Shown piece after piece: positions 2,305 through 17,172 of a DNA stretch of 17,172 bases (position 1 is the first letter of the stretch; each line of letters opens with the position of its first letter). The DNA is taken from positions 16,510-33,681 of the forward strand of contig CAKMZU010000001.1 of assembly GCA_929200485.1 (NCBI GenBank), read 5' to 3'. The notes beneath the pieces were generated by a model. That model saw nothing but the letters and a program-made list of their open reading frames with translations. It was not told the origin of the DNA and did not search any database. The position numbers were made by a program, and so were the translations under genes. The DNA is from an uncultured Gammaproteobacteria bacterium (lineage in GTDB: Bacteria; Pseudomonadota; Gammaproteobacteria; Pseudomonadales; DT-91).

Positions 2305-2769
2305 ATGCACTGCCCTTTTTGCCAAGCGTTAGATACTAAAGTTATTGATTCACGATTGGTTGCCGAGGGCAGTCAAGTCAGACGTAGACGCGAGTGTGCT
2401 GGATGCACTGAGCGTTTTACCACTTATGAAATCGCTGAGCTTGTCATGCCAAAAATCATCAAGCACAGCGGTGTTCGCGAACCGTTTGATGAAGCAAAAC
2501 TTCGTGCCGGTATTCTACGGGCACTTGAAAAACGTCCCGTTAGCGTTGAGCAGATTGAAGCTGCCATTGATCAGGTCAAACACCAACTACGAAGCACGGG
2601 TGAAAGAGAAGTTCAATCCAACTTGATTGGTGAAGCCGTCATGGATACCCTGAAAAGCCTTGACCAGGTCGCTTATGTTCGCTTTGCATCCGTTTATCGA
2701 AGCTTTCAGGATCTGGAAGAATTCCGCGCTGAGATTGATAAATTAAAACCTGCTGGTGAGGAAAACTAA
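2305..2769 (+). CDS. nrdR: transcriptional repressor NrdR (ribonucleotide reductase regulator)
   Basis: Nucleotide-sensing repressor of ribonucleotide reductase operons that binds NrdR boxes in DNA. The 154 residues show the family layout: an N-terminal zinc ribbon with Cys3-x2-Cys6 and Cys31-x2-Cys34, the basic run [18 protein letters not shown], then an ATP-cone domain over roughly residues 49-139 ([20 protein letters not shown] to [13 protein letters not shown]). A Shine-Dalgarno AGAGGA lies at 2289-2294. Placement between glyA and ribD is a common gammaproteobacterial order. The TAA stop overlaps the ATG of ribD by one base, which implies translational coupling. No ribonucleotide reductase gene is in the window, so its targets are elsewhere. 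Confidence 0.97.
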
Positions 2770-3881
2770 TGTTTTCTGCCTTAGATTATCAATTCATGGC
2801 CGATGCCATTATTGAAGCAAGAAAAGGCCAATACAATACCTCTCCTAACCCCGCCGTTGGCTGTATCATCACAGATGGAACTAAAAAAGCCTGTGGCTTC
2901 CATGAAAAAGCAGGCCTTGGGCATGCAGAAGTCAACGCACTGAAGAACGCAAAAGCCCAAGGGGTAAACCTTGCAGGATCGACGTGCTATGTCACGCTTG
3001 AACCTTGCAGTCATTTTGGCAAAACACCGCCTTGTGCAGAGGCTTTATCCCAAAGCGGGGTTAAGCGCGTGGTGTTTGGTATGTTTGACCCCAACCCAAA
3101 GGTTTCAGGCAAAGGCGTAGCACACCTTCGTGCTTGCGGCATTCAAGTCGACGGCCCATTGCTTGAAGAGGAAGCAAGACAGCTAAATATCGGTTTTTTT
3201 CATCGGATGGCCACAGGTTTACCCTGGTTTTTTGCTAAAACCGCCTCAAGCCTTGATGGGCGAACAGCGATGGCTAGTGGCGAAAGCCAATGGATTACAG
3301 GCAAAGAAGCACGCGCAGAAGTACAAAAGCTTCGTGCAAAAAGCTGTGCCATTATCACAGGTATTGGCACTGTTTTAGCCGATGACCCGCAACTTAACGT
3401 CAGAGATTCCCGTTTTTCTTTGAATGGGCATGGCATCCGCCAGCCGTTACGAGTTATTGTGGATAGCCAGTGCCGGATACCACTAGACGCAAAGTTACTG
3501 AATGACGGAGGCAAAACCCTGATTGCTTATGCTCAAGGCGATTCAAAAAAGCTTTCCGCATTAAAAGAAAAGCAGATTGAAACCGTTCAGTTAGATGATG
3601 GTCAGGGGAAAGTTGATCTTTCTGCGTTACTGCGGTTTTTAGGCGAAAAGCAATGCAATACCGTGATGCTCGAAGCCGGCAGCACCTTGCTTGGGTCATG
3701 CCTCGAACAAAATCTAATCAATGAAGTAAAAGCGTTTATTGCCCTCACACTGCTGGGATCAAAAGCCAGGCCACTTGCAACCCTGCCCCTTACTCAAATG
3801 AATCAGCAGATTCGATTTAAAAAAACAGACCTGCAACAGGTTGGCCAGGATTTATTAATTACCCTCTCAAGAAACGCCTAA
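2769..3881 (+). CDS. ribD: bifunctional diaminohydroxyphosphoribosylaminopyrimidine deaminase / 5-amino-6-(5-phosphoribosylamino)uracil reductase
   Basis: Catalyses two consecutive steps of riboflavin synthesis: zinc-dependent deamination of the pyrimidine made by GTP cyclohydrolase II, then NADPH-dependent reduction of the ribose side chain. The N-terminal deaminase (about residues 1-145) shows the zinc motif His52-Ala53-Glu54 and PCSHFGKTPPC with Cys80 and Cys89. The C-terminal reductase (about 150-370) starts with FFAKTASSLDGRTA and GESQWITG. The 370-residue length is normal. The start ATG overlaps the nrdR stop (TAATG). Downstream, where ribE usually follows, an antisense lipoprotein gene ends 19 bases after the ribD stop. 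I see no convincing rho-independent terminator between the two convergent genes. Confidence 0.97.
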   Translation: MFSALDYQFMADAIIEARKGQYNTSPNPAVGCIITDGTKKACGFHEKAGLGHAEVNALKNAKAQGVNLAGSTCYVTLEPCSHFGKTPPCAEALSQSGVKRVVFGMFDPNPKVSGKGVAHLRACGIQVDGPLLEEEARQLNIGFFHRMATGLPWFFAKTASSLDGRTAMASGESQWITGKEARAEVQKLRAKSCAIITGIGTVLADDPQLNVRDSRFSLNGHGIRQPLRVIVDSQCRIPLDAKLLNDGGKTLIAYAQGDSKKLSALKEKQIETVQLDDGQGKVDLSALLRFLGEKQCNTVMLEAGSTLLGSCLEQNLINEVKAFIALTLLGSKARPLATLPLTQMNQQIRFKKTDLQQVGQDLLITLSRNA

Positions 3882-3900
3882 CCAACTGACGCACAGCATT

Positions 3901-6417
3901 TTACCGTCTCTTTTTTATCGTTGTATCAGGCGAAGTGACGTTGGTTTTTCTCGTGTTAATAGTAGTTTCAACTTCACTGATTCTATTAATAAGAGTGTCA
4001 ATCTTAGCTCCGGCATCTCTACTAGCCTGATCATTGATCGTATCAGTATCGGGAGTCACGGCTTTCCGACTTCTTTCCAGCTCCGCTCTGAATTCTGTCA
4101 CTGTTTTAAGAGCTTCACTGCGGTATCTGCTGTCTACTTTAAAGGCACCTTTTTTCCCAAGGTCAGTTTCAATTTTGGATATGTATCTATCTAAGTTATG
4201 CAATACAGCTACTTCTCGTGTTATCGAAAAACCTGCTATAAGTGTGTCGCCCTGTGTGTTATTTACCCTATCAACAATTTTAAATTGTTCTATAGTTTCT
4301 AAAGAATAAACAGACCCACCATAGTTGTTTTTAAGTTTCTCTTGAAAACCCTTCAGTCGCCATATCTTAGGTTGAGAGCTGAAAAAACTGACCGCCTTAC
4401 CCAAGCCAAAGCTTTTCTTTGTGCCGGCTGACAAATTCTGCTTACGACTATCAATTACAGGGGCTTTGGTATCTTCCTGAGCGTTCATGAAAGCTTTTGT
4501 ACTAGCTTTCTTATGCGCTTCTATCATCTTAGAATTATATTCTGGACCAGACTCTATCTCGCCTCCAAATGTGACCTTCTTTTTCTCTACATAAGCCCCT
4601 CCTTTAAGCAGAGGGGAGCGTTGCCCATTTAGCGATGGTGATAAATTAGCTTCTGAATCTTCCGCTAACAAATCAAGATCTGACGGGCCAAAAACTGTCA
4701 CTATTAATTTACTCGCTTTAAAACTATCACCGTCCTGATCTCCGTCAGCTTTAAGTCCATTGATGTGAAATCCTTCCAAGATCAAATCTTTTATTAATTG
4801 GCTTGCCTGGTCTGCCGTTGAGAAGTTCACTATTTGAACATAAGGGTCGACTCTACCGATATTGACAACCACAGATGCATTTGAAAAGTCGATCGTTTTT
4901 ATCGATGCTGCTGCATCATCAATGTTAGCGCCCAAGCTCGGGTAATACGCGCGATAAATCGACTCCTCCAACCCTTTCTCTGTCAGCATGAATTTCCCTG
5001 CACCAACCTCAGCTAATTCGGTTTGACTGATAATTGGCAGCCTAATCTCAATTCGATGTGGAAGATCATTCAATAGCGAAACAGTGTTTGCATTGACCGT
5101 TGTCACTGATTCAAAATGCCCATCAATGACGACAAAGTCACCTTCTTTCACCTCTGAAGAGAGCTTTTGCTTACCTGCAACCGTTATCTCGGGAAATCCC
5201 CAAAAGTTATTACCTGTTGCATTCAAAGCCTGTGGTTCAACCACCAAAGGCGACAGGCTTTTTATACTACCTGCTAAACGAATACTTAACGGATCACCTT
5301 TCACTTTTTTGTTGCTTTCACGATCGAGCAACCACCAATCGGCCCCTTGGAATGTCATGCTTTCAAAGGTTGATACCTGATCATTATCGATATTCATCAA
5401 GAAAAAGGGATTTGTTTTTTGCTCCTTATCAAGAATTCTTGTGACATCAGTAAATCCTTCACTAAACGCTATTTTTGCAACTCTCTCTGGCCACTTCATT
5501 GTATCCACCATAGAGACAGAAGAGAGGCTTAACGTATTTGATTTATATTGCCCTTTTGCTTTTAAATAAACAGGGGTATCGGTGAGATTAAGCCCATTCA
5601 CCCATTCCAGTGCATCAGTTGCATCGATAGCAACCCAATCTTTTTTGAAAGTCGACTCGGATATTGCCAGCTCAAATGGCAGGCTTTCCTGAACCCCAAA
5701 GTAAAAAGCATTCAACCCAATCGTTTCATTACTCAACGCATCCAAATACCCTTCGACGATGACTTCTTCATCAATTGCATCAACAAGTTCTGCTTCAACA
5801 ACAGGCAAAAAGGTATAGGTTGTTTGATCATCTTCATTCGCCGTAATCAATGAACTAAAAGCACCATCGACATCAATCGCCAAACGAATAGCAGCAGGCT
5901 CTGCCCCCACGCTCAGCACCTTATCATCCTTAAACGACAACATCACAGTCTCAAACGCGTATTCGCCGCTATACAGCTGGCCATCCGCATTAAATAGCGT
6001 AGGAATATTCACGCCATCTTCAGTTAAATAAGAAAACATCGAACTATCGACATCCAGACTAATTATCAGCCCCACATACTCACCTCTGGGCAATTGAATT
6101 TGATTCAGCAAATAGGATGCACTGCCGCTCCCCGATAAAGGTAATTTAAAAATTTCTTGAGGGTCTCCTTTGGTTACAGGAATCAAAACCCCATCCTCTT
6201 TAAGCAGCATCATTGAATTGACAACCCAATCAGCATAGAAAAAGCTATTGTTATTTGGGCTTATAAAAATATTAACAAGACCTAAATCAGAGCCTTCCAA
6301 CACAAGGGTTTCCTGATTATTTGAAGAAGTGTTTTTATTTGAAGTGTCATTGCTTCCAGAGCAACCAAATAAGAAGCTTGCCAGTATGGCTGATAGTAAT
6401 AAGGGAGTAACTCGCAT
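3901..6417 (-). CDS. large putative outer-membrane lipoprotein of unknown function, inserted in the riboflavin locus
   Basis: Encodes 838 residues. The N-terminus MRVTPLLLSAILASFLFGCSGS is a lipoprotein signal with lipobox L16-F17-G18-C19; Ser at +2 suggests outer-membrane sorting. Residues of roughly 35-215, with an LPRGEYVGLIISLD stretch followed by a beta-rich segment ending in an LAIDVDGAFS-like strand, resemble the DUF4382-type beta-sandwich of secreted lipoproteins; this is a weak, by-eye match. Several beta-rich segments follow. The C-terminal 90 or so residues are charged and helical (coiled-coil-like) and end in KKRR. No catalytic motif is visible. AGAGAAG just upstream of the ATG could serve as ribosome-binding site. 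The gene is convergent with ribD (19-base gap) and divergent from ribB(X) (253-base gap), so it is transcribed alone. It occupies the place where ribE is normally found. The open frame is certain; the function is unknown. Confidence 0.85.
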   Translation of the reverse strand: MRVTPLLLSAILASFLFGCSGSNDTSNKNTSSNNQETLVLEGSDLGLVNIFISPNNNSFFYADWVVNSMMLLKEDGVLIPVTKGDPQEIFKLPLSGSGSASYLLNQIQLPRGEYVGLIISLDVDSSMFSYLTEDGVNIPTLFNADGQLYSGEYAFETVMLSFKDDKVLSVGAEPAAIRLAIDVDGAFSSLITANEDDQTTYTFLPVVEAELVDAIDEEVIVEGYLDALSNETIGLNAFYFGVQESLPFELAISESTFKKDWVAIDATDALEWVNGLNLTDTPVYLKAKGQYKSNTLSLSSVSMVDTMKWPERVAKIAFSEGFTDVTRILDKEQKTNPFFLMNIDNDQVSTFESMTFQGADWWLLDRESNKKVKGDPLSIRLAGSIKSLSPLVVEPQALNATGNNFWGFPEITVAGKQKLSSEVKEGDFVVIDGHFESVTTVNANTVSLLNDLPHRIEIRLPIISQTELAEVGAGKFMLTEKGLEESIYRAYYPSLGANIDDAAASIKTIDFSNASVVVNIGRVDPYVQIVNFSTADQASQLIKDLILEGFHINGLKADGDQDGDSFKASKLIVTVFGPSDLDLLAEDSEANLSPSLNGQRSPLLKGGAYVEKKKVTFGGEIESGPEYNSKMIEAHKKASTKAFMNAQEDTKAPVIDSRKQNLSAGTKKSFGLGKAVSFFSSQPKIWRLKGFQEKLKNNYGGSVYSLETIEQFKIVDRVNNTQGDTLIAGFSITREVAVLHNLDRYISKIETDLGKKGAFKVDSRYRSEALKTVTEFRAELERSRKAVTPDTDTINDQASRDAGAKIDTLINRISEVETTINTRKTNVTSPDTTIKKRR

Positions 6418-6449
6418 TTGTTATTCTTCTCTTGGGAGATATTGCTCTC

Positions 6450-6455
6450 AGTATA
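6450..6455 (-). promoter_or_regulatory. candidate -10 box for the 838-residue lipoprotein gene
   Basis: On the minus strand these bases read TATACT, 32 bases before the ATG at 6417, which would give a 5' leader of about 25 bases. No good -35 hexamer sits at 17 bases (only a weak TATTTG), so this is tentative. Confidence 0.25.
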
Positions 6456-6485
6456 GTTTCCAATGCGGACGACAAATAAAAAGAC

Positions 6486-6508
6486 GATTAACAAAGATTT
6501 AGTTAATC
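6486..6508. repeat. perfect 7-bp inverted repeat in the divergent lipoprotein/ribB(X) intergenic region
   Basis: GATTAAC at 6486-6492 and GTTAATC at 6502-6508 are exact reverse complements separated by nine bases. The dyad lies upstream of the candidate promoters on both sides, a fitting place for a regulator operator. No regulator family is recognised from the motif. Confidence 0.4.
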
Positions 6509-6581
6509 AATGGACTCTTTTCATGGCTCGAATATTTACCGATTAAACTTCTGTAAATTCAGTATATTTACCAACAAATTC

Positions 6582-6610
6582 TTGACTATTTACCCTATTA
6601 AGCGCAGCAT
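6582..6610 (+). promoter_or_regulatory. candidate promoter for ribB(X)-ribH-nusB
   Basis: TTGACT at 6582-6587 is a near-consensus -35. Seventeen bases later CAGCAT (6605-6610) is a poor -10 with three of six matches. It lies about 60 bases before the ribB(X) ATG. The leader is short and shows none of the conserved blocks of an FMN riboswitch. Confidence 0.3.
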
Positions 6611-6670
6611 AGCGCCCTTTGTTTTTATGGCTTAAATAGCGTAGGCTTACGGCCGTCACAGAGAGTCTCC

Positions 6671-7789
6671 ATGAACACCCCTGAAGAAATCATTAACGAT
6701 ATTCGCCTCGGAAAAATGGTCATTCTTATGGATGACGAAGATCGCGAGAATGAAGGCGACCTCGTCATGGCTGCCGAATGCGTTCGACCTTCCGATATTA
6801 ACTTTATGATTACTCATGCTCGCGGGTTAGTTTGCCTGCCCATGTCTGGTGAGCGTTGCGATCAGTTAAACTTGTCTCTAATGGTCGATGATCCTGCCTG
6901 CTCCCATGGCACAAATTTCACACTTTCCATTGAAGCCAAAGAAGGGGTAACCACGGGTATTTCTGCCTCTGACCGCGCCCAAACCATCAAAGCGGCCATT
7001 GCTAAAAACGCAACACCTGATGACATTGTTCAACCAGGGCACATCTTTCCATTACGCGCACAGAAAGGCGGCGTGTTAACCCGTGCGGGGCACACCGAAG
7101 CCGGTGTTGATCTTGCACGTATAGCCGGATTTGAGCCAGCAGCCGTCATTGTCGAAATCATTAATGCCGATGGTGAAATGGCAAGACGCCCTGAGCTAGA
7201 AGCCTTTGCAGCCGAACATAACCTGAAAATCGGCACCGTGGCTGATTTAATTGAATACCGTGTCGCCACTGAAAAAACGGTTCAGCATCTTGATTCCGCA
7301 CCGATTGCCACGACTCACGGCGAATTTATCCTTCACCGCTACAAAGACTTAGTGTTTGATCATATCCACTTCGTTTTAACCTTAGGTGACATCAAGCCTG
7401 ATGAAGTCACACTTACCCGCGTCCAGCAAACCAATACGGTAAGAGATGTCCTTCAAGGCGTTATCCCTGGTATTGAAGGCTGGAACATGGGCAGTGCAAT
7501 GCAAGCTATCCAAAAAGAAGGCAAAGGCGTTATTGTTCTTATTCACCAGCCAGAAACCAGTGATGAGCTACTAGCCAGCAGTGATTTGATTACTGGCAAA
7601 GAGTCTTTACCGCCAAAAAATTCAAACCTGACCCGTGAGATGAACTTAACCGTAGGCCTTGGATCACAATTGTTACGCGATTCAGGCGTTGGCAAAATGA
7701 AGCTTATGTCCAAACCTGTTCGTTACAGTGCAATCTCAGGATTTAACCTTGAAGTTGTAGAGTTTGTTTCACCCTCTGATTTTCTATAA
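6671..7789 (+). CDS. ribB: 3,4-dihydroxy-2-butanone 4-phosphate synthase with degenerate GTP cyclohydrolase II-like domain (RibBX type)
   Basis: The N-terminal domain (about residues 1-200) makes the four-carbon unit of riboflavin from ribulose 5-phosphate. It carries the acidic active-site motif DDEDRENEGD at residues 21-30 and RAGHTEAGVDLA from Arg138. The C-terminal domain (about 205-372) is related to GTP cyclohydrolase II by position and fold, but the zinc-binding cysteine cluster of active RibA (the G-S-x-R-C-D-C type motif) is absent. It therefore probably does not hydrolyse GTP and fits the RibBX variant described in Proteobacteria. A functional ribA is expected elsewhere. GAGAG upstream of the ATG is a weak ribosome-binding site. 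ribH starts nine bases after the stop. There is no FMN riboswitch in the leader. Confidence 0.93.
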   Translation: MNTPEEIINDIRLGKMVILMDDEDRENEGDLVMAAECVRPSDINFMITHARGLVCLPMSGERCDQLNLSLMVDDPACSHGTNFTLSIEAKEGVTTGISASDRAQTIKAAIAKNATPDDIVQPGHIFPLRAQKGGVLTRAGHTEAGVDLARIAGFEPAAVIVEIINADGEMARRPELEAFAAEHNLKIGTVADLIEYRVATEKTVQHLDSAPIATTHGEFILHRYKDLVFDHIHFVLTLGDIKPDEVTLTRVQQTNTVRDVLQGVIPGIEGWNMGSAMQAIQKEGKGVIVLIHQPETSDELLASSDLITGKESLPPKNSNLTREMNLTVGLGSQLLRDSGVGKMKLMSKPVRYSAISGFNLEVVEFVSPSDFL

Positions 7790-7798
7790 GAGTTTTTT

Positions 7799-8263
7799 AT
7801 GAATATTATTGAAGCGGATTTAATCGCAAGCGGTAAAAAATTTGCCTTAGTTGTTGGTCGCTGGCATGGTTTTGTTGTCGATAAACTCGTTGAAGGTGCA
7901 AAAAGCTGCCTGTTACGCCACGGCGCAAAAGATGCAGACATTACCTTGATTTATGCACCCGGTGCGTTCGAGATTCCCTTAACCGTACAACAGGTTGCGG
8001 CAACCAACAAATATGATGCCATTATTGCATTAGGTGCTGTTATTCGTGGCGGCACACCGCACTTCGAATACGTTGCCGGTGAATGTGTCAGCGGTCTAAG
8101 CAAAGTCAGCCTTGACCAAAACATTCCCGTCACCTTTGGCGTGCTAACTGTTGATACCATTGAGCAAGCCATCGAACGTTCCGGAACAAAAGCCGGTAAC
8201 AAAGGCGAAGAAGCCGCACTTTCTGCCATTGAAATGGCCAATTTACTAACAGTAATAAAATAA
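7799..8263 (+). CDS. ribH: 6,7-dimethyl-8-ribityllumazine synthase
   Basis: Condenses 5-amino-6-ribitylaminouracil with 3,4-dihydroxy-2-butanone 4-phosphate to lumazine, the penultimate step to riboflavin. The 154 residues include PGAFEIPL, the phosphate-binding and catalytic block [17 protein letters not shown] with catalytic His88, FGVLTVDT, and [12 protein letters not shown] near the end. The substrate-stacking position usually seen as RFN in relatives such as E. coli reads R21-W22-H23 here. The ribosome-binding site AAGAG overlaps the ribB(X) stop. The ribH TAA is immediately followed by the nusB ATG (TAAATG), so the three genes form one translation-coupled operon. Confidence 0.97.
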
Positions 8264-8731
8264 ATGAGTAAACGCCCATTAACCGACCAGCAGATACTGG
8301 TCGCTAAGCGCCGAAAAGCAAGACATTATGCCATGCAGGCGCTTTATCAATGGAAGATGACCAAAGCACCGATCAATAGTATCGAAACCGAATTTCATGT
8401 CGACAATGACTTCCGTCAGGTGGATGTGGATTATTTCAATGCCATTTTGCATGAAGTCCCAGCTAATTTGGATGTGATTGATGAAGCTATCGAGCACTGC
8501 ATTACTGATCGAGAAATAAAAGACATTAACCCCGTAGAGTTTTCTCTGCTGCGCATGGCTGTGTATGAACTGAAAGAGCGCATTGACACCCCTTATAAAG
8601 TCGTTATTAACGAAGCGGTTTCTTTGGCTAAAAAATTCGGCGCAGAAGATAGCCATAAATTTGTTAATGCGGTTCTCGATAAAGCGGCAAAAGACTTCAG
8701 GGCCATCGAAGTGCAAGCAAACAAAAGGTAA
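8264..8731 (+). CDS. nusB: transcription antitermination factor NusB
   Basis: RNA-binding helical protein that with NusE (S10) binds boxA and supports antitermination on rRNA operons. Its 155 residues carry the N-terminal signature RRKARHYAMQALYQW (from about residue 16) and the C-terminal signature PYKVVINEAVSLAKKFG followed by SHKFVNAVLDK. Length is typical. No Shine-Dalgarno is visible before the ATG, which directly abuts the ribH stop, so translation presumably relies on coupling. The ribH-nusB pairing is common in gammaproteobacteria. A 111-base gap with a palindrome separates it from thiL. Confidence 0.97.
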   Translation: MSKRPLTDQQILVAKRRKARHYAMQALYQWKMTKAPINSIETEFHVDNDFRQVDVDYFNAILHEVPANLDVIDEAIEHCITDREIKDINPVEFSLLRMAVYELKERIDTPYKVVINEAVSLAKKFGAEDSHKFVNAVLDKAAKDFRAIEVQANKR

Positions 8732-10416: not shown

Positions 10417-11139
10417 CTAGCTACGTCCTGGAAAGGGTGCAAGCAATGCTGATGCCATAATCGTAACTTCAGGCTCTACTTTAGCTATAGATTGACTGAA
10501 AACTTCTATTATTCTATTAACTTTCTCGCTAAACTTTTCCTTTTTCTGAGCTAGCCAGGGGCTTTCTCTAATGTAGCATTTAGTCGAGCCAAACGCTTGA
10601 TCTAACATTTTTTTGATATCTTCTCTACGATACATATTCTTGTTATAACTAATTGACTGCTGACTACATAAAATTAGCGCCATTTGCATAACATTTTCCA
10701 TTTCTTCATCATTATTTGCACATGTATCAACTTTACCAAGCAGTTGTCTTGCCCAATCATCAGCTGTATGAGTATATCTTTCCTCGCTATCTATCGGGTA
10801 ATGATTTCCCGAATTACTAGGAAATCCGGAAATCGCCATTTTAAAAAGTAAATATAGTGTGTTTTTTTCAAATGAATTGAGATCTTCTAAATTGGACTTG
10901 ATCGGGTCATTTGCTTGTTCATCATCACTTTCGAACTGGGCTGCATCATTTTCCCCGTTATTATTTAGCGCCTTTGTACTATCCTCAGCTGTAATACCCT
11001 CAGCTGTAATACCCTCAGATTTCTCATTATCCCGCACTAAAAAACCTTCACTTTTATTTTTAGAAACATCACCACCTGGCATTGCATAAATACTTGAATA
11101 GAATAAATTAAAAAATAAAAAGATAACTAAATATCGCAT
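10417..11139 (-). CDS. secreted protein of unknown family, copy A
   Basis: Encodes 240 residues from the ATG at 11139. That start is chosen over one 39 bases further upstream because GAGG precedes it at good spacing and because the paralog at 12419-11688 starts at the same point. The N-terminus MRYLVIFLFFNLFYSSIYA is a Sec signal peptide with a probable signal peptidase I cut after the second alanine-bearing IYA. The mature protein has an acidic, Asn/Glu/Ser-rich segment with a repeated EGITA, then a helical part with conserved DPIKSNL-DLNSFE and FKMAISGFP. No known domain is recognised. It pairs with copy B, and both face an MltC-like transglycosylase gene or its remnant across a shared-type divergent region. 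The amber stop may be premature. A role linked to the envelope cluster is an inference from position only. Confidence 0.75.
   Translation of the reverse strand: MRYLVIFLFFNLFYSSIYAMPGGDVSKNKSEGFLVRDNEKSEGITAEGITAEDSTKALNNNGENDAAQFESDDEQANDPIKSNLEDLNSFEKNTLYLLFKMAISGFPSNSGNHYPIDSEERYTHTADDWARQLLGKVDTCANNDEEMENVMQMALILCSQQSISYNKNMYRREDIKKMLDQAFGSTKCYIRESPWLAQKKEKFSEKVNRIIEVFSQSIAKVEPEVTIMASALLAPFPGRS
10984..11013. repeat. 15-bp tandem repeat inside copy A
   Basis: CTCAGCTGTAATACC occurs twice without gap (10984-10998 and 10999-11013), giving the doubled GITAE in the protein. The matching site in copy B also has two 15-base units, but diverged. Confidence 0.85.
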
Positions 11140-11171
11140 AGCGCCCTCAAATCTATTTGGTATATTATTAT

Positions 11172-11214
11172 TTGACAAAGTAATTTATGATTGTTCAAAA
11201 ATTTGAGATCGAAT
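11172..11214. promoter_or_regulatory. control region of the left unit, conserved with the right unit
   Basis: Contains TTGACA at 11172-11177 (plus strand) and ATTTGAGATCGAAT at 11201-11214, a one-base variant of the perfect palindrome in the right unit. A TTAGCGCTAA palindrome lies further on at 11268-11277. On the plus strand this would now drive only a pseudogene. It may still serve copy A on the minus strand. Confidence 0.3.
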
Positions 11215-11337: not shown

Positions 11338-11740
11338 ATGAATCTGTGCTTTTGCCAAATATCTCCAACAAAGCGCCCTGACGGATAAAGAAATTGAGAA
11401 AATCGCAGAGAAACTGCTGAAACAGAAACGACTCACCCAACAGACCCAGATAACGAATAGCAACAATCAAAAAATTTTCAGCTTAGACATTCCTCAATCC
11501 ATTAATAACCTAAAACAAATGCCTGAAAATCCAAACAGACCAATACTACAAAAGCAAATCAATCCACTGTTAGTTTGCAAGCTGCGCTTTTATCTTCGAA
11601 GAACGCGCAACCAATGAGCGAGGATAAAAACAGCTTATCGCAAAAAGCAAAAAGCAAAAAATCTGGAAAAAACCATTCACCAATAAGCTAATCATCACTC
11701 GGTTGGAAAACCCTTTTTTTTTGCATTAATTGAAACAAAA
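11338..11740 (+). pseudogene. MltC-like lytic transglycosylase remnant
   Basis: The first ten bases ATGAATCTGT equal the start of the intact gene at 12641. The sequence then jumps to the equivalent of position 13107 and follows the intact gene to about 13500 (for example LTDKEIEK, AEKLL, QKRLTQ, NNQKI). The missing 457 bases comprise most of the signal peptide and the whole N-terminal domain and leave a frameshift: from the ATG only 16 codons are open. Further indels follow, including an extra 7-base unit in a GCAAAAA run. The catalytic glutamate and everything after it are absent. The 3' end runs into the last codons of copy B on the other strand. It covers most of the space between the two secreted-protein genes and has no other coding content I can support. 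Confidence 0.88.
11640..11661. repeat. triple GCAAAAA heptamer in the pseudogene
   Basis: GCAAAAA occurs three times in a row (the last with one more A). The intact gene has GCACAAAGCAAAAAA here, so one seven-base unit was probably added by slippage, shifting the frame. Confidence 0.8.
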
Positions 11741-12419
11741 TATGCATAATATCAGGTCTTACTTCATCTATAGATTCATTAAAAGCATCTATGATTTTTT
11801 TAGCTTTCTCGCTGAAATTTTCCTTTTTTTTAGCTAACCAAGCGCTATTACTAATGAAATCTTTAGCTGAATCAAACCCTTGGCCTAACATTAATTTGAT
11901 ATCTTCTAGCTCATAAATACTCTTGTGATGACGAATTAACTGATGCCCATTTAAAATCAGCGCCATTTGCATAATATTTTTCATTTCTTTATCATTATCT
12001 GCAACTGCATTAAGTAACCCTCTTGCCCATTGATCAACTGATTCATTACACTCGCCAGTGCTATTTAACTGGAAATAAACTTCCTCTTCAGAAGTGATTG
12101 GAAATCCGGAAATCGCCATTTTAAAAATTAAATACAGCATACCTCTTTCAAATGAATTGAGATCCCTTAGATTGGACTTAATCGGATCATTTCCTTGCTC
12201 ATCATAACTTTCGAACTGAGCTGCATCATTTCTCCCGTCATTATTTAGCGCCTTTGCACTATCCTCAGCTACGCTACCGTCAGCTGTACCACCTCCGTAA
12301 TTTCTATTATTCTGTACAAAAGTACCTTCACTTTCATTTTTAGAAACAACATTACCTGGCAATGCATAAATACTTGAACAGAATAAATTAAGAAATAAAA
12401 AGATAACTAAATATCGCAT
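11688..12419 (-). CDS. secreted protein of unknown family, copy B, with chimeric C-terminus
   Basis: Encodes 243 residues, paralogous to copy A from the first residue (MRYLVIFLFLNLF, signal peptide ending SIYA) through the acidic segment and the conserved DPIKSNL-DLNSFE, FKMAISGFP and MQMALIL stretches. GAGG precedes the ATG. The last 17 or so residues (ILFQLMQKKRVFQPSDD) do not match copy A. Their codons are the reverse complement of transglycosylase sequence, equivalent to about 13448-13500 of the intact gene, so this end was created at the duplication join. The gene lies divergent to the intact transglycosylase gene, 221 bases apart. No domain is recognised. Whether the altered tail matters for folding or export cannot be told. 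Confidence 0.78.
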   Translation of the reverse strand: MRYLVIFLFLNLFCSSIYALPGNVVSKNESEGTFVQNNRNYGGGTADGSVAEDSAKALNNDGRNDAAQFESYDEQGNDPIKSNLRDLNSFERGMLYLIFKMAISGFPITSEEEVYFQLNSTGECNESVDQWARGLLNAVADNDKEMKNIMQMALILNGHQLIRHHKSIYELEDIKLMLGQGFDSAKDFISNSAWLAKKKENFSEKAKKIIDAFNESIDEVRPDIMHILFQLMQKKRVFQPSDD

Positions 12420-12518: not shown

Positions 12519-12640
12519 GGTAGTTTCAATAAACCAGCAAAAATGATCAAGCTCCCAACATTAGCGTTAAATTACTAAACGCTATTGATAAAAACACGCC
12601 CTGTTGTTAGGATTTCATTTTTTTAATAATTGGTTTACGG

Positions 12641-13939
12641 ATGAATCTGTTATCTAAAACAATTGGCTTGGGATTTTTAGCCGCCTTCCTTACAAGCTCT
12701 CTTCAAGCGAACAATACCCAGCTGCAAGAATTCACAGCATACAAATCCGCTCTCCTTGATGAGTTCCAGACCTTCAAACGCATTCACGAAGAAGAAAGTA
12801 AAAAATATCGTCAAGCCTTAAAGAAATATTGGGATGATCCAGAGTTCAGCAGCAAAACAACCTGGGTTCAATATACCAACGGTGATCTTCAAAAAAGTCG
12901 CGTGGACTTTGAAAAAGGCGAGATAACCATTAGCCGCATTCAAAAGGCTGGCACACCCAAAAAAGACATTAAACAAGCCGTTATTGAATTACTAAAAACG
13001 ACCAAGCAGCAGGCGTTTAATAACGACAAACTCTCTCAATCGATTGAAAAGCGCAGCCTTGCGGAAGTAAAAAATATCAAAACTGGCAAGCCGTCGAACG
13101 AATCAGTGCTTGCTTCACATATTTCAAATAAAGCGAGCCTGACGGATAAAGAAATTGAAAAAACCGCAGAGAAACTGCTCACACAGAAACGACTCACCCA
13201 GACAACGAATAAGAACAATCAAAAAATTGTCAGCTTACATATTCCATTATCCATTGATAACCTAAAACCCATTAATAACCTAAAACAAACGCCTGACCAA
13301 TCCAAACAGGCCAATACAACAAAAGCAAATCAATCCAATGTTAGTTTGAAAGCTGCGCTTTTATTCTCGAAAAACGCGCAACCAATGAGCCAAGGCGAAA
13401 ACAGCTTACCGCACAAAGCAAAAAACCTGGAAAATGCCGTTCATCAATATGCTAATCAGCGCTCGGTTGCAAAACCCTTGATTTTTGCATTAATAGAAGC
13501 AGAATCCGCGTTTAATCCGCTAGCAAAGTCCCATATTCCCGCCTATGGATTAATGCAGATTGTACCGCAAAGTGCAGGTCAAGATGCCTCAGCCCTGATC
13601 CATGGAAAAGCTACTTTGTTGTCACCTTCCTATCTTTACAACAGCAAAAAAAATATTGAGATGGGCGTGGCTTATATTTATATCCTTTATTATCGCTACT
13701 TAAAATCTATCGATGACCCCGTATCCCGCCTTTATTGCACTATCGCCGCTTACAATACAGGCGCTGGCAATGTTGCTAAAGCGTTTACCTCAGGACGCAA
13801 TATCAAAAAAGCAGCCAAAACCATTAACCAAATGTCTTCCGATGACGTTTATCACCACCTAATCAAACACCTTCCCTATGCCGAGACACGAAACTACTTG
13901 AAAAAAGTGAATCGGCTATTACCTAAATATTTTGTTTAA
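12641..13939 (+). CDS. MltC-like membrane-bound lytic murein transglycosylase (soluble-signal variant)
   Basis: Cleaves peptidoglycan glycan strands to 1,6-anhydro products in the periplasm. The N-terminus MNLLSKTIGLGFLAAFLTS ends LQA before NN, a Sec signal cut by signal peptidase I; there is no lipobox, unlike E. coli MltC. Residues of about 28-135 match the MltC N-terminal domain (YKSALLDEFQTFK, WVQYTNGDLQKSRVDFEKGEITI). A Lys/Gln/Asn-rich linker of about 120 residues follows. The catalytic SLT domain (about 265-432) has FALIEAESAFNP with catalytic Glu288, YGLMQIVPQSAG, and TIAAYNTGAGNV, then a MltC-like tail with DDVYHHLIKHLPYAETRNYL. At 432 residues it is longer than E. coli MltC because of the linker. 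Only ACGG directly abutting the ATG resembles a ribosome-binding site. It heads a co-directional lipoprotein cluster, nine bases before the next gene. Confidence 0.9.
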   Translation: MNLLSKTIGLGFLAAFLTSSLQANNTQLQEFTAYKSALLDEFQTFKRIHEEESKKYRQALKKYWDDPEFSSKTTWVQYTNGDLQKSRVDFEKGEITISRIQKAGTPKKDIKQAVIELLKTTKQQAFNNDKLSQSIEKRSLAEVKNIKTGKPSNESVLASHISNKASLTDKEIEKTAEKLLTQKRLTQTTNKNNQKIVSLHIPLSIDNLKPINNLKQTPDQSKQANTTKANQSNVSLKAALLFSKNAQPMSQGENSLPHKAKNLENAVHQYANQRSVAKPLIFALIEAESAFNPLAKSHIPAYGLMQIVPQSAGQDASALIHGKATLLSPSYLYNSKKNIEMGVAYIYILYYRYLKSIDDPVSRLYCTIAAYNTGAGNVAKAFTSGRNIKKAAKTINQMSSDDVYHHLIKHLPYAETRNYLKKVNRLLPKYFV

Positions 13940-13948
13940 GGAATTACT

Positions 13949-14899
13949 GTGAAAAGGGTATTCAGCCTCATCCTTATTGGTGTTTTGGCAAGTTGTGCCA
14001 GCACCCCTAAAGTGACCACACCTAATTGGTATATCAACCCCATCGCAAACCAGGGCAACAAACTCTATGGCGTTGGTCAGGGTCTATCAAAAAAAGCAGC
14101 AAAACAACGAGCGCTTGAGGATATTCTTCAATTTATCAGCGTAGAGCTGGCAACGCAGTCCACATCGAGTCAAACCGTATCACTGGGTCAACTTAGCAGC
14201 TCATATAATCAAAAAAGTAAAATATCAACATCCAACATACAGTTCACTAAAGTAACAGAAGAACAAACAGCTCAATCGGGCGTTGATTACTATATGCAAG
14301 TCTCCGTCAATAAATCGGATATTGTTGATAGCCTGAATAAAAAAGCCAATAAGCATGCACGCGAACTTAAGGCGGCTGTATCAGAAAAAAATAGCTCCCC
14401 GATAGACTCATTGCTAACGCTTAATAAGCAGCAGAAGGCACTGAAAGAATTAGTGGAATTAACGCCTTTACTCTCATCCTTTGACCCCCATTATTCCGAG
14501 ATTGAACATGAACGACTTATCCAGCAGTTTATTAAAAAACGGGCGTCTCTCGTTAAGCAATTTTCAATAAAAATTGATGCTCCAGATACGCTAACCCCTC
14601 TCGTTGATTCAATTTATTCGTATTTCAATCGGCAAAATGTGTTAAAAGTTTCTGCAAAACCCGATCTGCTAATTGTTTTACGAGAATCCAGCCAACAATC
14701 GTCACTTTACGGCTCCACCACAGCCGAAGTCTCTTTAAATATTCAATTAAAGGACAGAAAGAACACCGTTATTTATAAAGAAAATGTTAAAAAGTCAGCA
14801 TCTTCTGTTACCTCTTTTGCTAAAGCAAAAACCAGCGCAATAACCCAGTTAGCTAAACAAGTTAACGATCTCAACTCAATCAAACACTTAGGATTTTAA
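13949..14899 (+). CDS. LPP20-family lipoprotein
   Basis: Starts with GTG at 13949, supported by AAGGAA at 13938-13943, which overlaps the transglycosylase stop. The 316-residue product begins MKRVFSLILIGVLASCAS, a lipoprotein signal with lipobox L13-A14-S15-C16. Residues of about 26-130 show the LPP20 pattern: PNWYINP, LYGVGQG, then an AKQRALEDI-type helix and a strand-rich segment ending DYYMQVSVNKSDI. A helical middle part follows. The last 100 residues form a second alpha/beta domain (PDLLIVLRESS, AEVSLNIQLKD). Similar proteins include the flagellar FlgP-type lipoproteins, but no flagellar gene is nearby. It likely sits at the outer membrane, facing the periplasm, with the next two gene products. 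Confidence 0.8.
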   Translation: MKRVFSLILIGVLASCASTPKVTTPNWYINPIANQGNKLYGVGQGLSKKAAKQRALEDILQFISVELATQSTSSQTVSLGQLSSSYNQKSKISTSNIQFTKVTEEQTAQSGVDYYMQVSVNKSDIVDSLNKKANKHARELKAAVSEKNSSPIDSLLTLNKQQKALKELVELTPLLSSFDPHYSEIEHERLIQQFIKKRASLVKQFSIKIDAPDTLTPLVDSIYSYFNRQNVLKVSAKPDLLIVLRESSQQSSLYGSTTAEVSLNIQLKDRKNTVIYKENVKKSASSVTSFAKAKTSAITQLAKQVNDLNSIKHLGF

Positions 14900-14916
14900 T
14901 AAAAAGGATCTTACCT

Positions 14917-15951
14917 ATGAAAATTGTACTCTTACTCATCTCCACACTCATTCTATTCGGATGCTCCAGTTATAAAATCAAAGGCGACATCCAAACAGAT
15001 TTTGCTAAAAAAGATATTCCTCAGACGGAATTTTTGCCATCAAAGGACAAAATCGCAGGCAAGCCTATGACTATCTTAGTCATGGACACTAAAGTTCAAT
15101 CAAAACTTGGCAAACAAGCGGAACTAAACTCTGTTGTTTCATCGAACATCGAAGGTCTATTGATCAAAAACAAGGTGAACCTTGCCGACCGTACCAAGGC
15201 AACCGAGTTAGGCAAGGAGCTTCAACTAGCTGAGTCCAAAGGGGTGTCCACCTATCAAGGTGAGCAAGTTGCTGACTATGTGCTTATCCCACATATTACC
15301 AGCGCGGTTTTTTCTCGTAAGTATCACGACGCCTACACAACACAAGACAAAGAAGGTAAAACCTACTATCACCCGCCAAGATGCGTGTATGAAGCTGATA
15401 CCACAGGTTTTATCGAAGTGTATGAAATGCCAGCATTAGTGGCTAAAGATCGCGTTGAGATTAAAGGCTATTCAAGCAAATCGACTGAAACCCGTCGTGG
15501 CTCCAGCTGCGGTTATTCACAGGATGACACTAACGCCCTAGTTGTTGCTGCGAGTCAAAAAGGCATCAAAAGAGAAAAATCCACAATCAAAAATCTGTTT
15601 GCCCCAACAGGCTATGTTGTTGAAATGCGCATGAGCGAAAAAGGCAAAGCCATCATTAAAACCACCCTAGGAACCGAAAAAGGTGCCATATTAAAAGGCA
15701 AGGTATTGATCAAACAAAAACGTTCTCAAACTAACGACTTGACCGGCAAGACTGATATGATTCAGGTTACTGTTGGCGAAGGCACCATCTCTGACAAACT
15801 TTATGGGCCTTATTCCTGGATTATTCTTAATGATAAAAAATCCAAGCTTGGCCAAATCCGCCTAGGCGATGAAGTGAGTATTGAATACAAAGATTCAATT
15901 TTCGATAAAATGAGCAATGGCGTCAATAGCTTCGACAAGTTTGTCAATTAA
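14917..15951 (+). CDS. CsgG/FlgT-like lipoprotein
   Basis: The 344-residue protein starts MKIVLLLISTLILFGCSS with lipobox L13-F14-G15-C16. AAGGAT seven bases before the ATG is a good ribosome-binding site. Residues of about 45-135 have a CsgG-type pattern: PMTILVMDTKVQ, a helix with SSNIEGLLIKNKVNLADRTKATEL, then ADYVLIPHITSAVFS. A central segment holds two cysteines (Cys156, Cys198) that could form a disulfide. The last 100 residues are beta-rich with a repeated glycine pattern (KTTLGTEKGAILKGKVLI and LGQIRLGDEVSIEY) reminiscent of the FlgT C-terminal domain. Neither match was tested by alignment. CsgG-like lipoproteins build outer-membrane pores or rings or activate penicillin-binding proteins (LpoB); which applies here is open. 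Flanking LPP20 genes support a shared complex. Confidence 0.72.
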   Translation: MKIVLLLISTLILFGCSSYKIKGDIQTDFAKKDIPQTEFLPSKDKIAGKPMTILVMDTKVQSKLGKQAELNSVVSSNIEGLLIKNKVNLADRTKATELGKELQLAESKGVSTYQGEQVADYVLIPHITSAVFSRKYHDAYTTQDKEGKTYYHPPRCVYEADTTGFIEVYEMPALVAKDRVEIKGYSSKSTETRRGSSCGYSQDDTNALVVAASQKGIKREKSTIKNLFAPTGYVVEMRMSEKGKAIIKTTLGTEKGAILKGKVLIKQKRSQTNDLTGKTDMIQVTVGEGTISDKLYGPYSWIILNDKKSKLGQIRLGDEVSIEYKDSIFDKMSNGVNSFDKFVN

Positions 15952-15972
15952 TCTAGAACACAGGGAAAAACC

Positions 15973-16533
15973 ATGAAAATAACAATGAAAAAGCTATTAG
16001 CATCAGGCGCACTAACGCTACTCGCCGCTTGTGGCTCTGTACCCGAAAAAGAACAAGCCGCCAGCATTCCATCCTGGATATTAAGCCCAACCATTGATGA
16101 TGGCATTGCTGCAACCGCGTGTGTTAATTTTTCAGGCAATATGAATATTGATAAAGCTCAGGCCGTTGCTACAGCAAGAGCTGATATCACCAAGCAAATT
16201 AACATAAAAGTTCAAGCAATGGATAAAACCTATGCAAGAAAAACAGAAACCGCAGATAAGATGGTTTCTAGTAACGTCTTTGAATCGGTTTCAAAGCAAC
16301 TCGCTCAACAATCGCTGGTTGGTTCACGACCAGAAAAAGTTGAAATTCTTGATATTGCTGGCAAGCAACAGCTTTGCGCCATGGTAACCTTGAAGCCTGC
16401 GATCACTGAAAAGCTGTTTAAAGACATTATCAAAAATTCGGGTGAGAAGATCGCCGCACAAGATGAATCCATTCTATTCGAAGAATTCAAAGCGCATAAA
16501 GCCCAACAAGAGTTAGAATCCAGCACATTTTAA
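15973..16533 (+). CDS. second LPP20-family lipoprotein
   Basis: Encodes 186 residues. AGGGA upstream at about seven bases favours the ATG at 15973 over one four codons downstream. The N-terminus MKITMKKLLASGALTLLAAC gives lipobox L17-A18-A19-C20. The remainder is essentially one LPP20-type domain: IPSWILSP, GIAATACVNFSGN, DKAQAVATARADITKQI, ending in a strand pair (VEILDIAGKQQLCAMVTL) and a charged helical tail. It is 21 bases downstream of the CsgG-like gene on the same strand and is probably the last gene before a hairpin at 16542-16564. It differs clearly in sequence from the first LPP20 protein, so the two likely play distinct structural roles. Confidence 0.8.
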   Translation: MKITMKKLLASGALTLLAACGSVPEKEQAASIPSWILSPTIDDGIAATACVNFSGNMNIDKAQAVATARADITKQINIKVQAMDKTYARKTETADKMVSSNVFESVSKQLAQQSLVGSRPEKVEILDIAGKQQLCAMVTLKPAITEKLFKDIIKNSGEKIAAQDESILFEEFKAHKAQQELESSTF

Positions 16534-16541
16534 CCTCTCTA

Positions 16542-16564
16542 AACCGGCCTCATTGAGGCTGGTT
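16542..16564. terminator. 10-bp hairpin after the second LPP20 gene
   Basis: AACCGGCCTC pairs with GAGGCTGGTT (one G-U pair) around a three-base loop ATT, nine bases after the stop codon. The tract that follows, CTATTACCC, is poor in T, so termination may be partial or the stem may act on mRNA stability. The next gene starts 25 bases after it. Confidence 0.45.
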
Positions 16565-16589
16565 CTATTACCCTCACAAGGAGTCCATA

Positions 16590-17172
16590 TTGAAACTGAT
16601 CACCCCCTTTCTCGCCACAATTATTTGTTTAGCATTTTCAAGCCATGTGTCAGCAAATGAGTCTCAAGCTTTCGAAGAACTTTGCGAATCGTTTAATAAT
16701 TGCACTAAAAAAGAACCAGAAGTACAAACACAAGTTATCATCCAAAAAGAAGTGATCTATGTTGAAGCGCCTACACCTCAACCTTCACATCAAAAACCAG
16801 CTCAGCCAATACCACCAAAAATCGTCAACCCCGAGCCGCCCGCTAAAGCACAACCCAGAAACACACAACACTTATTTAATAACAACATAGTCAGCATCGA
16901 GTTGTTAGGGTTACGAACCAATGAGGATAAAACCACACTTATTGCTCAATTTGAGATCGCAAACCAGCTTGATAAAACAATATGGATCTACTACAACTAC
17001 ATGAGTGATTTTTTGATAACTGACTCCAATGCAAGAATATGGAAGTTAACAAAATCAACTGGGATAAACAGTAACCATACGCGCTTTACACCAAAAAGCA
17101 CCAGCAAAAGTCAAATGATCTTTAAGCTTAGCGAAGCAAAAGAGCTCACCGACCTTTCCAAATCTAATGCCA
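16590..17172 (+). CDS. secreted or periplasmic protein of unknown function, TTG start, 3' truncated by window
   Basis: The frame is open from TTG at 16590 to the window end (194 codons). AAGGAG at 16578-16583, six bases before the TTG, makes this start convincing even though the codon is rare; the first ATG in frame is far inside the protein. The N-terminus (M)KLITPFLATIICLAFSSHVSA reads as a Sec signal with cleavage before NES. A short acidic region with two cysteines (LCESFNNC), a proline/glutamine-rich linker, and then a beta-rich domain (IVSIELLGLRTNEDKTTLIAQFEIANQL) follow; that last part has the look of an extracellular immunoglobulin-like or DUF4352-like fold, but I cannot assign it. 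Direction and spacing place it with the lipoprotein cluster. Confidence 0.75.
   Translation, partial: MKLITPFLATIICLAFSSHVSANESQAFEELCESFNNCTKKEPEVQTQVIIQKEVIYVEAPTPQPSHQKPAQPIPPKIVNPEPPAKAQPRNTQHLFNNNIVSIELLGLRTNEDKTTLIAQFEIANQLDKTIWIYYNYMSDFLITDSNARIWKLTKSTGINSNHTRFTPKSTSKSQMIFKLSEAKELTDLSKSNA

Follow-up and report, generated by a model that had tools for sequence, protein, structure and literature searches.

What function joins a lytic transglycosylase of the MltC type to a row of putative lipoproteins, two of the LPP20 type and one resembling FlgT and CsgG (hereafter LPP20a, LPP20b and CsgGL), in an uncultured gammaproteobacterium? The window, i.e., the whole stretch of 17,172 nucleotides that was analysed, covers positions 16510-33681 of a 49650-base contig (CAKMZU010000001.1) in an assembly (GCA_929200485.1) of 3.66 Mb in 512 contigs that is 93% complete. 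At 12641-17172, five plus-strand frames follow each other with gaps of 9, 17, 21 and 56 bases (Table 1). Here, we identify CsgGL as very probably a protein similar to the middle and C-terminal domains of FlgT that is part of a recurring gene set together with LPP20-type lipoproteins and the enzyme. We suggest, at a probability of roughly 0.45, that this set is an envelope module in which a lipoprotein scaffold places or regulates a soluble MltC-like transglycosylase at the outer membrane.

Judged from its predicted structure and from intermediate sequences, CsgGL is FlgT/CsgG-like. It matches no Pfam or NCBIfam family, including CsgG (PF03783) and LpoB (PF13036), and sequence searches of solved structures gave nothing of note. 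First, the AlphaFold2 model of CsgGL (predicted local distance difference test, pLDDT, 80) has FlgT as its top Foldseek match (3e-12); the initial annotation had named a lack of any CsgG/FlgT relation as the outcome that would speak against it, and this match shows the opposite. The match spans the middle and C-terminal domains of FlgT in the same order, with a CsgG/TolB-N-type domain at about residues 49-229 and a FlgT_C-type barrel at about residues 230-325, while FlgT_N is lacking and about 46 residues, including the signal peptide, precede the aligned part. The Foldseek list also includes CsgG (2.3e-5, ranked far behind FlgT), and other structural matches are the PelC dodecamer, TolB, LptE and GNA1162. 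By VIA-align, in which we treat Z differences under 1 as ties, CT253 and PelC scored 11.3 versus 10.6 for FlgT. An earlier AlphaFold2 model from three sequences had a pLDDT of 36 and was not used. Second, a relative in an Aquifex metagenome-assembled genome (MAG) passes Pfam CsgG (2e-14) and carries a weak FlgT_C match; the CsgGL profile recognises its C-terminal domain strongly (4e-16) and its N-terminal domain hardly (0.013). This protein is also weakly LpoB-like, below both cut-offs (Pfam, 0.0003; TIGR02722, 8e-7). Among the aligned relatives of CsgGL, Cys156 and Cys198 are retained in 17 of 18.

The other members of the set are recognised more directly. LPP20a passes Pfam LPP20 (PF02169; 2.8e-8, 34.5 bits versus a cut-off of 25.9) over residues 25-118, followed by about 200 more residues, and matches 4kzs ("LPP20 lipofamily protein") at 2e-7 and by profile at 7e-15. 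A second CsgG-type domain in its C-terminal part was considered and is not supported; hhalign to CsgGL aligns the two proteins from the signal peptides onward, at a probability of 39. LPP20b stays below the PF02169 cut-off (E 0.0086, 16.9 bits) and was not picked up by the LPP20 search of its own genome; however, its relatives exceed that cut-off (1.6e-6 and 1.5e-7), and LPP20b and LPP20a match in a profile-profile comparison (probability 95.6, E 1.2e-8). The enzyme matches Pfam SLT (1.6e-24) and Mltc_N (8e-9), the nearest solved chains are those of MltC (9vi7 and 4c5f), and its score for the NCBIfam MltC equivalog is 166.9, far below the 375-bit cut-off. It retains the active-site-type motif ESAFNP, the Glu of which we take to be catalytic. 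Scanning with an alignment of the enzyme found 403 relatives; all counts out of 80 given here refer to the best 80 of these, which are not a random sample. The ES motif is present in all 80, as ES.F.P.A.S in 76 and in the other four as ES.Y.P, where Tyr takes the place of Phe. A lipobox was looked for in the enzyme sequence and none is present, and 77 of these 80 relatives likewise have no lipobox pattern. Relatives of the enzyme also occur in 21 viral loci. Altogether, the fold types proposed in the initial annotation (FlgT/CsgG, LPP20 and MltC) are borne out by Pfam, profile and predicted-structure matches.

As the initial annotation expected, these genes recur together, in shuffled order. 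Profile A1, built from the CsgGL of the window and two database matches regardless of their neighbours, identified eight loci at E < 1e-8 in further genomes from the order (a ninth, at 0.008, was excluded); LPP20a adjoins in five of the eight and the enzyme lies in the cluster in four. Among these loci is a single fragment, G061 runs into a contig end on the other side, and two (G208 and G287) stand alone. The same profile found no relative in collections of genome contigs, viral contigs and plasmids. The wider profile A7, in which the loci from G011 and G053, as well as the second one from G025, were included for their LPP20a adjacency, had matches in 22 of the 390 order genomes and in 4 of the 369 class genomes, the own genome being in both counts. 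With a strong match defined as E under 1e-30, which excludes the weaker ones (12 of the 22 order genomes), 17 loci in 13 genomes remain. Intact LPP20a adjoins 11 of these 17, a figure biased upward because three of the 11 loci had entered the profile through LPP20a adjacency; the five of eight obtained with A1 is free of this bias. The remaining strong loci include one at a contig end and one fragment beside ETEC_3214 remains.

Full sets of enzyme, LPP20b, LPP20a and CsgGL were found in Marinobacter (three loci), a Cellvibrionaceae MAG, strain Bs31, a Pseudomonadales MAG and three genomes of one genus. Counted by lineage, the set is found in five others, namely Marinobacter, a Cellvibrionaceae-type lineage, another Pseudomonadales MAG, a further genus and the Aquifex MAG. 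The order is ETEC_3214-LPP20b-enzyme-LPP20a-CsgGL in Marinobacter, LPP20a-CsgGL-enzyme-LPP20b with a divergent ETEC_3214 gene in two further loci (L065 and L088), and ETEC_3214-LPP20a-CsgGL-LPP20b-enzyme in the three genomes of one genus. In the Aquifex MAG, the row begins with an LPP20 gene over the cut-off, a small LPP20-like gene (custom profile 3e-11, no Pfam match) and the enzyme, and continues with the CsgG protein with weak FlgT_C, a protein of 363 residues and an LPP20-like gene under the cut-off. Because content is kept while order shuffles, we argue for a shared function. LPP20-type genes are enriched around the enzyme, accounting for 54 of 620 frames within 4 kb and for 8 of 558 farther away in the same 80 loci; this comparison counts related loci as independent, which makes its p value too small. 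In 35 of 80 loci, the enzyme has an LPP20-type gene no more than two genes away on its own strand, and 38 of 80 have one within 4 kb; by phyla assigned by hand from record titles, the latter split into Gammaproteobacteria (16/23), Campylobacterota (12/40), Aquificota (6/9), Deferribacterota (2/2), Desulfobacterota (1/2) and the remaining loci (1/4). CsgGL is near the enzyme in seven of the 80. The own genome carries a second CsgGL-LPP20a pair (G000 contig 13, 12766-14740; L165 8749-10771), with no enzyme among the neighbours shown.

These observations are consistent with a model in which the four complete genes would form one envelope module. LPP20a, CsgGL and LPP20b all have a lipobox, and none has Asp after the Cys. 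By the usual rule, the lack of Asp following the lipobox Cys means sorting to the outer membrane; thus, outer-membrane sorting is predicted for the three. They would probably be anchored in the outer membrane on its inner leaflet and build a scaffold in the periplasm out of the kinds of domains that also occur in the flagellar ring proteins FlgT and FlgP. This scaffold would hold and regulate the soluble MltC-like enzyme, so that glycan strands may be cut at chosen sites of the wall beneath the outer membrane; CsgGL would occupy the slot that LpoB holds in related clusters. The physical complex, the outer-membrane sorting and the tethering or activation of the enzyme are inferred. The model is favored by three partners with a lipobox beside an enzyme without one, by the recurrence of the set, by the retained ES motif, by the LpoB-type genes of related clusters and by the absence of FlgI and FlhA from the own assembly. 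Several observations weigh against this model. CsgGL is rare and patchy, with strong matches in 10 of 390 order genomes (own included) and 3 more of 369 in the class, and it was not found in the five nearest relatives. Only five of the eight A1 loci adjoin LPP20a and only four carry the enzyme; the enzyme lies in the cluster at 6 of the 17 strong loci, two of which are one cluster, and four loci stand alone. Homologs scattered through genomes had been named beforehand as counter-evidence, and while they are not consistently scattered, several CsgGL genes do stand alone. Of the 18 CsgGL relatives that were aligned, 4 have no lipobox Cys; in Campylobacterota, an LPP20-type gene is found within 4 kb at only 12 of 40 enzyme loci, and a genome of the same genus (L176) has none among the enzyme neighbours shown. 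Finally, FlgI is present in all 12 other CsgGL-positive genomes tested, which makes a flagellar link possible elsewhere.

Some of the same evidence would fit a non-flagellar outer-membrane ring of the FlgT/FlgP type, formed by CsgGL and the LPP20 proteins and supporting or admitting another trans-envelope structure, with the enzyme opening the wall; we consider this unlikely, though it is the leading alternative. FlgT heads the Foldseek matches, among them the chain of an "LPHT ring" solved by cryo-electron microscopy, and two ring formers from this superfamily, CsgG and the PelC dodecamer, were matched as well; however, so were TolB, LptE and GNA1162. In PMC12222027, the SHS2 fold of LPP20 type is described as common to FlgP and FlgT, and ring formation as accompanying a hairpin insert. 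No secretin or pilus gene was recognised by eye among the listed neighbours, which were not scanned systematically. A bolder version, in which a flagellum-independent ring of this type with its own transglycosylase occurs across several phyla and is possibly ancestral to the Vibrio H/T ring, is to our minds a long shot. If it were true, FlgT would have arisen by fusing parts that are still separate genes in the Aquifex MAG and here. The Aquifex protein of 363 residues (L072 8718-9809) has a weak LipL46 match (2e-5, far under the cut-off) and might be a FlgT_N-like part.

The set could also be a flagellar accessory that, in flagellated hosts, helps the motor to be fitted into wall and outer membrane and that is, in this lineage, left over or re-used after flagellar loss. 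The initial annotation stated that no flagellar gene is present, and for FlgI and FlhA this holds for the whole assembly, with no match to either (controls positive in 3 and 4 of 14). Since both are lacking, a flagellum is not required for the gene set here. A flagellar accessory would agree with the structural match to FlgT, with FlgI in 12 of 12 other CsgGL-positive genomes and with its absence from the own genome and four of the five nearest relatives (present in one of five; the base rate for CsgGL-negative genomes is drawn from these five). However, the four complete frames stay open in the own genome despite the missing FlgI and FlhA, and no flagellar gene was seen by eye in the listed clusters, which were not scanned systematically. 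We regard a flagellar accessory as unlikely.

A wall-synthase activator set, in which CsgGL would act LpoB-like on a penicillin-binding protein and couple the enzyme to synthesis, is improbable. LpoB itself, a lipoprotein of the outer membrane, is the activator of a wall synthase. Clusters in Spongiibacter, Neomelitea and Marinospirillum, in which CsgGL was not detected, have an LpoB-type gene and a gene for 508-571 residues; Pfam LpoB matches in two of the three (4e-33 and 1.5e-36), and the third was assigned by blast clustering. The LpoB-type genes in Spongiibacter and Marinospirillum and the weak, sub-cut-off LpoB match of the Aquifex intermediate favor such a role. CsgGL does not match LpoB, its 21 relatives include a single one that does (the Aquifex protein), and no synthase gene was noted by eye in the listed clusters, which were not scanned. 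A CsgG-type pore exporting the neighbouring secreted proteins would account for the CsgG fold match but is very unlikely, with CsgG far under FlgT in Foldseek, with no relative of the secreted neighbours in the 91 loci searched, and with a polar CsgGL hairpin (133-158; mean hydropathy −1.75; 10 of 26 residues K/R/D/E/H), which makes a CsgG-type membrane strand there seem less likely.

Table 1. Features of the cluster (window positions).
Feature	Position	Strand	Basis
MltC-like lytic transglycosylase, signal peptide (by reading), without lipobox	12641..13939	+	Pfam SLT, Mltc_N; MltC structures
LPP20a lipoprotein, GTG start, lipobox LASC	13949..14899	+	Pfam LPP20
CsgGL lipoprotein, lipobox LFGC	14917..15951	+	Predicted structure and intermediates
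LPP20b, short LPP20-type lipoprotein, lipobox LAAC	15973..16533	+	Sub-cut-off Pfam; relatives; profile match
Stem of 10 pairs (one G-T), 3-base loop, no T run	16542..16564	+	Read from sequence
Secreted protein, TTG start, incomplete	16590..17172	+	Open reading frame; end in N run

The stem between LPP20b and the last gene is a possible mRNA boundary; it is absent from the terminator scan output. A promoter scan gave 7 sites versus 10.1 expected, including TTGATA-17-TAGGAT at 12585-12613. Extending the sequence past 17172 carried the TTG-started frame, cut by the window edge, into a run of N in the assembly just beyond, and the end of the gene was not recovered. This protein has a weak Lipocalin_8 match (0.0019) and no relative besides itself across the 91 loci. 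On the minus strand, 10417-11178 and 11688-12419 each encode a secreted protein without a Pfam or NCBIfam match over the cut-off; the two resemble each other in their N-terminal parts and are evidently paralogs. The initial annotation regarded these divergent proteins as possible cargo or partners; neither has a relative in the 91 loci, and nothing ties them to the cluster. A further small secreted-looking frame lies at L002 7450-8133. The minus-strand frame 3901-6417, between ribD and ribBA (names by reading), encodes a lipoprotein-like protein of 838 residues without a Pfam or NCBIfam match. The window cluster lies a few genes from an nrdR-ribD-ribBA-type region (2305-8731), as does the Spongiibacter enzyme cluster, which adjoins one (by reading; L090 6283-9705); this shared neighbourhood is possibly an old position of the cluster.

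Other genes recur around the enzyme. An ETEC_3214-type gene lies within 4 kb in 11 of 80 loci, all in Gammaproteobacteria, and a check of three proteins, two from the 80 loci, confirmed the NCBIfam ETEC_3214 domain in each. PMC5554520 terms the function of ETEC_3214 (E. coli H10407; NCBIfam NF043066) unknown. In one class genome (G620; L181 736-3342), an ETEC_3214-type gene, the enzyme and LPP20b stand in this order, followed by a lipoprotein-like frame of 138 residues, and the CsgGL genes are located away from this cluster. A family of 471-504 residues is found near the enzyme or LPP20b in eight loci, one a fragment (L039 3470-4885, L049, L074, L081, L083, L092, L096 and L172 5003-6517); three members tested had no Pfam match over the cut-off, and in L172 the member seems to occupy the place of the enzyme. 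A gene for 111-135 residues, a HIT-family protein by reading, precedes the enzyme in 21 loci, and the surroundings of the set in L065 and L088 include an ion-channel-like gene.

We found no description of such a gene cluster in a literature search with most subscription journals outside its coverage. That search gave nothing joining LPP20 with lytic transglycosylase and CsgG, LPP20 with MltC, FlgT with CsgG (with or without LpoB), or "LPHT ring" with FlgT; papers on FlgT, FlgP and LPP20 together concern flagellar motors, and those on LPP20 and lytic transglycosylase, by listing, concern H. pylori. Judged by title, none of the entries listed for further queries, 10 of 50 and 15 of 59, dealt with a cluster of this type. 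Lytic transglycosylases need restraint, and few partners are known. The set provides named candidate partners of LPP20, FlgT and LpoB type for a soluble MltC-like enzyme, also in Marinobacter, and a possible non-flagellar source for the ring domains of the Vibrio flagellum.

Compared with known systems, CsgGL has the same order of middle and C-terminal domains as FlgT of the Vibrio flagellar H ring (3w1e and 8z5n); however, it lacks FlgT_N and has a lipobox, its gene lies beside that for a lytic transglycosylase, and FlgI and FlhA are missing from the assembly. The curli pore CsgG shares the core fold, while CsgGL has no Pfam CsgG match and a polar hairpin. LpoB, the activator of PBP1b, belongs to the same fold superfamily, while CsgGL has no sequence match to it and has an added FlgT_C-type barrel. 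ETEC_3214-type genes flank related enzyme loci and were not found in the own genome, a weak negative since no control genome was positive. The enzyme shares with MltC (4c5f and 9vi7) the catalytic domain, the Mltc_N region and the ES motif and differs from it by having no lipid anchor and by scoring far under the equivalog cut-off. Finally, in the LPP20 family (Helicobacter Lpp20, 5ok8; HP1454 type, 4kzs; FlgP fold), LPP20a has the domain over the cut-off and LPP20b is a remote member; in contrast to that family, LPP20a carries its long additional part, and both genes lie beside those for an MltC-like enzyme and CsgGL.

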